Assembly: GCA_016787925.1 (NCBI GenBank)
Contig: JAEUSK010000301.1
Coordinates: 1-32,715, forward strand
Length of the DNA stretch: 32,715 nt
Reading direction: 5' to 3'
From: a bacterium
GTDB taxonomy: Bacteria; CLD3; SB21
Of this stretch, positions 20,851-22,898 are shown piece after piece (the first letter of the stretch is position 1; the number at the start of each line of letters is the position of its first letter). The notes below the pieces were generated by a model. It did not search any database. It was given only the letters and a program-made list of their open reading frames with translations, and was not told the origin of the DNA. The position numbers and the translations under genes were made by a program.

Positions 20851-21192
20851 ATGACAGAAAAAACACCTAAATCATTTGAAGAATTGATTCAAGTCAGTGA
20901 AGTGCCTGTTTTTGTTGATTTCTGGGCAGAATGGTGCGGGCCATGCCGCATGGTGGCGCCATCAGTAAAACAGCTTGCCGAAGAACTTGCCGGCCGTCTG
21001 ACGGTGATAAAAATCAATGTGGATGAGAAACCCGAAATTGCCTCTCAATACGGCATTCAGAGTATCCCAACTTTTATGATCTTCTACAAAGGAAAAGCCG
21101 TTTCCCGCTTTTCAGGCGCGATGCCTTATCCGATGTTGAAACAGGAAGTGGAAAAAAACTTATTGCACCTGAACGAAACCGCAATCGCATAA
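20851..21192 (+). CDS. trxA: Thioredoxin
   Basis: Cytoplasmic dithiol reductant of 113 aa with the canonical WCGPC active site (C29 and C32 in FWAEWCGPCRMVAP) and the cis-proline loop IQSIPTFMIF. No signal peptide. The upstream region is AT-rich and has no clear SD. It is the first gene of a dense plus-strand run (OsmC, DUF302, small membrane proteins, DUF6132, DUF2892), in which it is likely the general electron donor. The short spacing (9 bp to the OsmC ATG) supports co-transcription. Confidence 0.95.
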   Translation: MTEKTPKSFEELIQVSEVPVFVDFWAEWCGPCRMVAPSVKQLAEELAGRLTVIKINVDEKPEIASQYGIQSIPTFMIFYKGKAVSRFSGAMPYPMLKQEVEKNLLHLNETAIA

Positions 21193-21201
21193 AAGGCCTT
21201 G

Positions 21202-21606
21202 ATGGAAACAACAGTTAAATGGATCTCAGATAAACATTTCAAAGGTTTTGCGGAAAATAAGACTGCGATCGACATGGATGACGTACAAAAGGGTGCGCCA
21301 ACGCCGATGGAAATTCTGCTGATGAGCCTCGCCGGCTGCGGCGGTATCGACATTGTTCCCATGCTAAAGAAAATGAGGCAGGAACTTGTCGCTTTTGAAA
21401 CGACCATTAAGGCTGAACGGGCGCATGACCATCCCAAAGTATTTACGAAGATCCATCTCGATTATCATTTTACAGGAAAAAAACTGGACCCGAATTCCGT
21501 AGAAAAAGCAATTACACTCAGTCATGAAACCTATTGTTCTATTGCTGCCATGTTAAAACCCACGGCAGAGATCACTTATTCTTATAAAATAAGCGAAGTA
21601 GCATAA
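21202..21606 (+). CDS. OsmC-family peroxiredoxin-like protein
   Basis: Member of the OsmC/Ohr fold (134 aa). Two conserved cysteines, C46 in SLAGCGGID and C112 in HETYCSIAAML, are placed as in OsmC proteins that reduce peroxides through a Cys pair. GAPTPMEILLMSLAGC is the usual family signature. The frame extends one codon to a TTG at 21199, but the ATG at 21202, behind AAAAGG, is the likely start. It follows trxA by 9 bp, and thioredoxin could recycle it. Whether its substrate is an organic hydroperoxide, a sulfane-sulfur species or something else cannot be told from sequence. Confidence 0.92.
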   Translation: METTVKWISDKHFKGFAENKTAIDMDDVQKGAPTPMEILLMSLAGCGGIDIVPMLKKMRQELVAFETTIKAERAHDHPKVFTKIHLDYHFTGKKLDPNSVEKAITLSHETYCSIAAMLKPTAEITYSYKISEVA

Positions 21607-21616
21607 GGAAATAAAT

Positions 21617-22003
21617 ATGGAATACGGATTTTCAAAAACCGTAGGTTACTCCTATGACCAAGCCGTTGAAAAAGTCACGGAAGAATTGAAGAAAGAAGGC
21701 TTCGGCGTACTTACTTCCATCGATGTCAAAGATACCATGAAAAAGAAACTTGATGTTGATTTCAAAAAGTACGTCATTCTTGGCGCCTGTAACCCGGGAT
21801 TGGCTCATAAAGCGCTGACCGCAGAAATTGATCTGGGCCTGCTCCTGCCGTGCAACGTGATTGTCTATGAAAACGACCAAAATAAAACGGTCATCGGTTT
21901 TTTTGATCCCAAGTTGATGGCAAAGCTGATTGACAATCCGGAATTAAATGGCATCGCGGACGAAGTGTTCCATAAACTCCAACGGGTCTACGCTGAATTA
22001 TAG
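21617..22003 (+). CDS. DUF302 protein
   Basis: The 128-aa protein has the DUF302 pattern: a beta-alpha start (YGFSKTVGYSYDQAVEKVTE), EGFGVLTSIDVKDTMKKKL, YVILGACNPGLAHKAL and LGLLLPCNVIVYEN. The GACNP and LLPCN cysteines are typical of the family. It has no known enzymatic activity but is often encoded with thioredoxin-, rhodanese- or sulfur-handling genes. AAGGAAATAA precedes the ATG, 10 bp behind the OsmC stop. It is soluble, and its role in redox or sulfur chemistry is inferred from context only. Confidence 0.92.
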   Translation: MEYGFSKTVGYSYDQAVEKVTEELKKEGFGVLTSIDVKDTMKKKLDVDFKKYVILGACNPGLAHKALTAEIDLGLLLPCNVIVYENDQNKTVIGFFDPKLMAKLIDNPELNGIADEVFHKLQRVYAEL

Positions 22004-22009
22004 TCAAAT

Positions 22010-22237
22010 ATGAACCCTAAGAAACCCTGGATATATCCGCTGCTGGCATCCTTAACACTGGGGCTAGCCCCCTTCACGCCTGAGCCTCATATTTGGAAGC
22101 AATTGGCAGCCATATGGCATGGCACTTTTCATGAATGGATCGACTGGTTCGATCTCGTTTTGCACGGATTTCCGTGGATCTGGTTGACGGCGGTGGTGAT
22201 GAGAATGTTAATAAATAAAAGCCCCGATAAACTATGA
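22010..22237 (+). CDS. Small membrane protein (75 aa)
   Basis: Two hydrophobic segments (WIYPLLASLTLGLAPF, about 7-22, and VLHGFPWIWLTAVVMRML, about 50-67) flank a Trp- and His-rich loop (EPHIWKQLAAIWHG). Small proteins starting with a similar LTLGLAPFxPEPH motif occur near heavy-metal or RND-type genes in other FCB-group bacteria, but this protein is far too short to be a transporter. It begins 6 bp after the DUF302 stop, so it is likely translated from the same mRNA. The loop histidines and tryptophans could interact with metal or lipid head groups, which is speculative. Confidence 0.75.
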   Translation: MNPKKPWIYPLLASLTLGLAPFTPEPHIWKQLAAIWHGTFHEWIDWFDLVLHGFPWIWLTAVVMRMLINKSPDKL

Positions 22238-22293: not shown

Positions 22294-22380
22294 ATGAGTG
22301 AATGGAAAGTGCTGTTGTTTCTGGCAGGATATTTCTTGTTGATGTATTACATCTTGCCAAAATTGGGCGTGCCTACTTGA
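22294..22380 (+). CDS. Micro-ORF, 28-aa single-helix membrane peptide
   Basis: A 29-codon frame encodes a peptide beginning MSEWKVLLFL, with one hydrophobic helix (LLFLAGYFLLMYYIL) and ending in LPKLGVPT. It lies 56 bp behind the 75-aa membrane gene, and its TGA directly abuts the ATG of the next micro-ORF (zero-base spacing). The SD is weak (AAAGAAAG). The clean hydrophobic core with a Pro-Lys turn, and the head-to-tail packing with coding neighbours, argue for a real gene rather than chance. Family and role are unknown to me. Confidence 0.65.
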   Translation: MSEWKVLLFLAGYFLLMYYILPKLGVPT

Positions 22381-22464
22381 ATGAACAGCTCTTGTTCCGT
22401 GTCGAACAAGCCCAAAATCAAGAAAAAAATTGAAGCCGACGAACCTTCCGAGGGATTAGAATGA
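22381..22464 (+). CDS. Micro-ORF, 27-aa Cys-containing basic/acidic peptide
   Basis: The peptide starts MNSSCSVSNKPKIKKK and ends in an acidic EADEPSEGLE. It has a single cysteine at position 5 and a lysine-rich middle. It begins immediately after the stop of the previous micro-ORF, and its TGA overlaps the ATG of the DUF6132 gene (ATGA), a classic translational-coupling arrangement. It has no transmembrane helix. It may be a standalone peptide or a coupling leader for DUF6132. Evidence is positional; no homologue can be named. Confidence 0.5.
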   Translation: MNSSCSVSNKPKIKKKIEADEPSEGLE

Positions 22465-22664
22465 AAAAGAAATTATTATTTATTGCGTTAGGAGCCGGAG
22501 CCGGTTTCGCGTATTATTATTTTATCGGATGCAATAACGGTAGCTGCCTTATTCAAAGCAACCCGTACATCAGCAGCACATATGGCGCCGCCGTGGGATG
22601 GGCCGTCTCTACCGTATCGCTCCCGCGTAAAAAAAACAAAAAAGATCAGGATTCTTTGATCTGA
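22461..22664 (+). CDS. DUF6132-like membrane protein
   Basis: The 67-aa protein has a hydrophobic N-terminal helix (LLFIALGAGAGFAYYYFIGC), then CNNGSCLIQSNPYISSTYGAAVGWA, which matches the GCxxGxCxIxSxPxxS pattern of the DUF6132 family, and a basic tail (RKKNKKDQ). The two cysteines are close to the membrane face. The family is typically found with thiosulfate- or sulfur-handling and DUF2892 proteins. Its ATG overlaps the previous micro-ORF stop. Role is inferred from context; function is unknown. Confidence 0.82.
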   Translation: MKKKLLFIALGAGAGFAYYYFIGCNNGSCLIQSNPYISSTYGAAVGWAVSTVSLPRKKNKKDQDSLI

Positions 22665-22706: not shown

Positions 22707-22898
22707 ATGAAATGCAATGTAGGTAATGCCGATCGTATGTTTCGCATCATTGGCGGCATGGTAATAATCGCTTTGGGATTAATTTTTCAGTCATGGTGGG
22801 GAGTTATTGGTCTGTTACCGATTTTGACTGGAACTCTTCGTTGGTGTCCATTGTATTTACCTTTCAAAATCAGTACAGACAAGACGAATCAGGCTTAA
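22707..22898 (+). CDS. DUF2892 (YgaP-like) membrane protein
   Basis: A 63-aa two-helix protein: MKCNVGNADRMFRIIGGMVI is the typical DUF2892 start, followed by IIALGLIFQSWWGVIGLLPI and a CPLYLPFKISTD tail. In E. coli YgaP this domain anchors a rhodanese, and elsewhere it accompanies sulfur-transfer genes. An SD (AAAAAGGAG) is present. It is the last gene of the run before a strong terminator at 22907. The 42-bp gap behind DUF6132 is free of any terminator. Confidence 0.9.
   Translation: MKCNVGNADRMFRIIGGMVIIALGLIFQSWWGVIGLLPILTGTLRWCPLYLPFKISTDKTNQA

Follow-up and report, generated by a model that had tools for sequence, protein, structure and literature searches.

Two abutting micro-ORFs in a thiol/sulfur operon very probably form one gene for a 56-residue membrane selenoprotein

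Does the DNA at 22294-22464 of this contig hold two very small genes or one? The window, that is the whole 32,715-nucleotide stretch that was analysed, carries here an ORF of 28 amino acids (22294-22380), which ends in TGA at 22378-22380, and an ORF of 27 amino acids (22381-22464), which starts directly after it and whose stop overlaps the ATG of the DUF6132 gene (22461-22664) as ATGA. An earlier note had described these as two head-to-tail micro-ORFs, packed more tightly than chance frames would be, and both the abutting frames and the flanking genes that it named (a 75-aa ORF upstream at 22010-22237 and the DUF6132 overlap downstream) are present exactly as it had them. When the TGA is translated as selenocysteine (Sec, U), the single frame reads MSEWKVLLFLAGYFLLMYYILPKLGVPT-U-MNSSCSVSNKPKIKKKIEADEPSEGLE, with one transmembrane (TM) helix, a conserved LPxxGVxT-U-M/LxxxC motif, a charged tail and a final TGA stop at 22462-22464. 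We conclude that a single gene very probably occupies the region and encodes a single-pass membrane selenoprotein of 56 residues. The features of the operon are as follows.

20851..21192, plus strand: thioredoxin (WCGPC), first gene of the operon (TIGR01068, 5.2e-35, above cutoff)
21202..21606, plus strand: OsmC-family protein (PF02566, 1.1e-18)
21617..22003, plus strand: DUF302 protein, the sole DUF302 gene found in the host genome (PF03625, 1.8e-25)
22010..22237, plus strand: 75-aa membrane protein with no family assignment and with synteny in G006, G007 and G008
22294..22464, plus strand: very probable selenoprotein gene of 56 codons, Sec included; about 120 homologues keep this frame across the TGA
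22378..22380, plus strand: in-frame TGA, almost certainly the Sec codon (residue 29), from column conservation among homologues and selA co-occurrence
22391..22410, plus strand: bSECIS-like hairpin CTTGTTC-CGTGTC-GAACAAG (-7.0 kcal/mol; 8 of 400 synonymous shuffles as good)
22461..22664, plus strand: DUF6132-like membrane protein with GCNNGSC (PF19628, 5.9e-5, 23.1 bits, just under the cutoff of 23.2)
22707..22898, plus strand: YgaP-like TM (DUF2892) protein (PF11127, 1.1e-20)

When nine genomes of the host's small phylum were searched in all six frames, the complete frame, interrupted by a single TGA, was recovered in both genus relatives, at 82-85% identity, and in G006 from another genus of the host family, at 50% identity; the TGA position is kept in every verified relative within the phylum. 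Conservation of the frame through the TGA in G007, G008, G006 and far beyond bears out the view that the packing exceeds chance, and in relatives both frames are coding, conserved and set in the same thiol/sulfur operon. The predicted excess of synonymous change was also found, since upstream of the TGA the host and G008 differ with a pS of 0.60 and a pN of 0.02. Upstream of the TGA pN/pS is 0.15, which is conservation at the amino-acid level, and the pooled value downstream is 0.59, the C-terminal tail being poorly constrained. A candidate Cys relic in G003 (L013, GCMNRSCSVS) was rejected as a chance match, as its upstream frame is closed and tblastn found no operon genes there.

The family extends well beyond this phylum. 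Of 396 Acidobacteriota genomes searched with a profile, 87 gave matches; 80 regions were retrieved, of which 79 show the motif and one (L161 in G129) was rejected as a non-homologue, and eight weak matches stand outside the verified members. The Sec column holds TGA in 78 of these 79 loci and TGT in the other. A scan of GTDB contigs gave a Bryobacterales MAG locus (L046) reading LPRMGVPT-U-MSSTCDVEFRR, beside a gene that, judged by eye from its sequence, we take to resemble DsrE. Among 386 genomes sampled across Bacteria, the TGA form occurs in 42, from about 33 taxonomic families; one of these genomes, G756, yields the same two proteins as G038 of the Acidobacteriota set. At the domain-wide loci the column is TGA in 39 of 40; the exception (L187, G649:C168:3078-3197), in a selA-positive genome, has CGA instead and a frame broken right after it, stop codons following within a short distance, and is a decayed or decaying copy. 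Neither TAA nor TAG was found at this column in any verified member, and Cys takes the place of Sec in a single homologue (L085, encoded by TGT), whose genome, G196, lacks selA.

The distribution of the TGA form follows that of the Sec machinery. A selA gene was detected in 73/78 Acidobacteriota genomes with the TGA form as against 180/318 without it (Fisher p=5e-11), and domain-wide in 41/42 as against 133/344 (p=9e-15); shared ancestry inflates these p-values, and the pattern holds in two sampling schemes. The TGA-form genomes with no selA match (five Acidobacteriota and one domain-wide) are perhaps incomplete MAGs. Within the host family, the host itself (G000), G006, G007 and G008 carry the gene, SelA and a full-score tRNA-Sec, and all three are absent from G003, G004 and G005, the last having a marginal SelA-like match (4.5e-6). 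The host genome encodes SelA, SelB, SelD and a tRNA-Sec with anticodon TCA. Its SelB lies in two parts, at the end of contig C26 and the start of C118, which is probably an assembly break. Its SelD itself contains Sec (ECAG-U-ASK; L227, G000:C76:5117-6043, minus strand), and its TGA is followed by a hairpin of -15.2 kcal/mol. Recoding of TGA throughout the genome was set aside, this codon being the stop of many genes in the window.

Downstream of the TGA, the host sequence folds into a 7-bp stem, located 17 nt from the TGA, with a 6-nt loop whose second position is G and whose third is U. At -7.0 kcal/mol (z -1.15) this hairpin is weak against the limit of -7.5 kcal/mol in the published bacterial SECIS model (PMC13188914); it agrees with that model in the other criteria. 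G006 has two compensatory pairs in its hairpin, and about 36 nt past the TGA are identical between the host and G008, against change at 60% of synonymous sites just upstream. Across the family, hairpins that fit the published model (PMC13188914) and reach -7.5 kcal/mol were found in 72 of 83 sequences, and in 77% of 39 domain-wide loci. A stricter definition, which asks for a stem no shorter than 6 and a G[GU] loop, gave 67% as against 5.6% of synonymous-codon shuffles, and 72% against 3.5% domain-wide. The pairs also covary: in 37 gap-free sequences, each of the five nearest the loop is preserved in 36-37, despite changes such as GC/CG/AT and CG/GC/TA. An Rfam scan of the operon returned chance matches only. 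Conservation of the TGA as a codon and the hairpin at 22391-22410 had both been overlooked in the earlier note. Because of the selA co-occurrence and the SECIS-type hairpins, we read the TGA at 22378-22380 as almost certainly a Sec codon within one frame; that the product is a selenoprotein seems to us nearly certain from comparative sequence evidence, which predicts the Sec insertion itself.

These results bear directly on the view that the TGA is a true stop and that the second ATG of a coupled pair is reached by reinitiation. An ATG does follow the TGA directly in the host, in its genus relatives and at 44/79 Acidobacteriota loci. However, no ATG, GTG or TTG follows it at 34/78 Acidobacteriota and 22/39 domain-wide TGA loci, where the downstream protein is still conserved, and an independent second ORF is therefore excluded at about half of the family. 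The lack of any exchange of TGA for TAA or TAG, the selA co-occurrence, the hairpins and the frames that continue into thioredoxin also speak against two genes, an arrangement that we consider extremely improbable. Thus what stands of the micro-ORF proposal is that both frames are coding and conserved; their separateness does not. A regulatory leader peptide, in which selenium-dependent UGA readthrough would control the downstream DUF6132 and YgaP-like genes, might be suspected from the very short gene, its tight packing ahead of DUF6132 and its poorly constrained tail. Yet the operon position is not conserved, the gene often being last or alone and having different genes downstream, and the amino-acid conservation upstream of the TGA and the thioredoxin fusions also speak against it; this explanation too is very unlikely. 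A plain-stop reading of the TGA combined with leader-type coupling was likewise rejected.

What, then, might a single selenoprotein do here? A 31-row alignment shows no variation at P, G, T or the Sec column, and T directly precedes Sec in 120/121 members. The first Cys lies five residues past Sec in 86/121, and 16/121 have no Cys within 13 residues of it; an intramolecular selenenylsulfide therefore cannot be universal. There is also a subgroup (L125, L129, L151, L153, L156, L158, L159, L193, L196, L199 and L202) reading T-U-[AGS]VP.. or similar, mostly with no nearby Cys, in which Sec may function with no partner inside the protein. Every member carries a hydrophobic stretch ahead of Sec, with a mean 17-mer hydropathy of 2.2. 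Net charge is higher on the C-terminal than on the N-terminal side of it in 89 members and lower in 14, which by the positive-inside rule suggests an N-out/C-in topology.

The host operon runs thioredoxin, OsmC, DUF302, the 75-aa ORF, the selenoprotein frame, DUF6132 and the YgaP-like TM protein. The 75-aa membrane ORF shows 55-86% identity in G006, G007 and G008 and also has a match at an Acidobacteriota locus (L123 5298-5441, 52%). A census of co-directional neighbours (62 genes upstream, 41 downstream and a further 65 second genes) counted YgaP-like TM proteins (10+2), rhodanese (8+6), DUF302 (5+7), MBL (2+6), TauE (4) and SufS-type proteins (4). When tblastn was run with the window proteins, DUF302 lay near 20/79 and thioredoxin near 11/79 Acidobacteriota loci, and thioredoxin was near or fused to 9/39 domain-wide loci; neighbourhoods vary outside Acidobacteriota. 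DUF302 is close to single-copy: 32 genomes gave 28 matches, about 10 adjoining the selenoprotein gene, and so this association is not due to chance. Two loci, L190 (2992-3519, 6.2e-29) and L191 (2518-3153, 8.1e-29), are natural fusions, in which reading on past the TGA leads from the TM-Sec segment into a thioredoxin domain (WCAPC and WCGPC).

The neighbours and the DUF302 association lead us to favour a membrane-bound selenol in thiol/sulfane-sulfur chemistry. Under such a scheme SelB with Sec-tRNA(Sec) would decode the UGA at 22378 thanks to the hairpin at 22391-22410, and the helix would anchor the protein with its N-terminus outside and its C-terminus inside, so that the invariant P..G..T-U and, five residues on, the Cys that is its usual partner would lie at the cytoplasmic membrane surface. 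There the selenol and partner Cys would most likely form a selenenylsulfide, or the selenol would carry sulfane sulfur. The supply would come from partners of sulfurtransferase or persulfide type (rhodanese, DUF302, YgaP-like TM, OsmC), and the thioredoxin of the same operon, fused to the selenoprotein in two lineages, would reset the selenol; electrons or sulfane sulfur would thereby pass between the selenol and thioredoxin or sulfurtransferases. We lean towards the general picture of a widespread, hitherto unrecognised family of single-pass selenoproteins of about 55 residues, almost only in Sec form, whose inner-face selenol would serve thioredoxin and rhodanese-type partners as a redox or sulfane-sulfur relay. 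For the thioredoxin/sulfane-sulfur role in particular, with a substrate and thioredoxin cycle suggested by neighbours and fusions, we judge the balance to be even.

A selenoprotein handling mainly metal or selenium compounds (e.g. selenide, mercury or arsenic) at the membrane, and not linked to thioredoxin and sulfane sulfur, would fit the lack of a universal Cys partner and the RND efflux, HlyD and ArsR genes that adjoin the gene in some Acidobacteriota. The commonest neighbours are instead sulfur-transfer proteins (rhodanese, YgaP-like TM, DUF302, TauE and MBL), together with thioredoxin, including the two fusions. BigR is itself a member of the ArsR family. Repressors such as BigR control sulfide-detoxification operons (PMC5823870). 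A metal or selenium role is possible but rather unlikely.

About 20% of the Acidobacteriota genomes sampled carry the family, as do about 11% of those in the sample across Bacteria. If confirmed, the thiol- and sulfur-associated selenoprotein proposed here would be among the commoner and smallest of bacterial selenoproteins, missed because gene callers end the gene at the TGA. Conventional callers split the family or miss it altogether, the TGA looking like a stop. That almost all homologues retain Sec is out of the ordinary and suggests chemistry for which Cys is a poor substitute, and the family offers a handle on what selenium does in sulfide/persulfide operons.

The protein is of a known kind, a selenoprotein, in a form that we did not find described, a single-pass microprotein. 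Pfam and NCBIfam models gave chance-level matches only among the 31 members scanned (best E value 0.0022, in 1/31), a PDB profile search gave nothing significant, and literature text searches found no description of the family. The 2026 catalogue of 119 selenoprotein families has no entry in its Table 1 with this sequence or the motif LPxxGVxT-U-xxxxC (PMC13188914). With these bacterial selenoproteins the family shares the in-frame TGA, a bSECIS-type hairpin, selA/selB/selD/tRNA-Sec and, in most members, a partner Cys near Sec. It differs from the catalogued families with known domains, which are mostly soluble redox domains, many of thioredoxin-like fold (PMC13188914). The protein itself, at about 56 aa with one TM helix, has no thioredoxin-fold domain, a fused thioredoxin occurring only in L190 and L191. 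The nearest-looking motif is that of the VPGUxxT family thioredoxin-like protein (OS_HP5, NF041383), where Sec likewise follows a V-P-x stretch; OS_HP5 has a thioredoxin-like domain, and NF041383 matches 0/31 of the members scanned. TsoA, TsoB, TsoX and TsoY are also selenoproteins, reportedly from the work of Haft and Tolstoy in 2025, and TsoB is said to be a rhodanese/DsbD fusion-like protein. Their motifs differ (LULAxC, UxxxxU, HSGNPxU), and the Tso NCBIfam models (cited in PMC13188914 for Haft and Tolstoy 2025) had no match among the 31 members scanned. YgaP, membrane-anchored rhodanese systems and bigR-type sulfide operons have YgaP-like TM, rhodanese, MBL, TauE and ArsR neighbours in common with the present family. 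Unlike the YgaP and rhodanese systems, it is a predicted selenoprotein without a rhodanese domain, and its reactive residue would be a Sec on a peptide tail.
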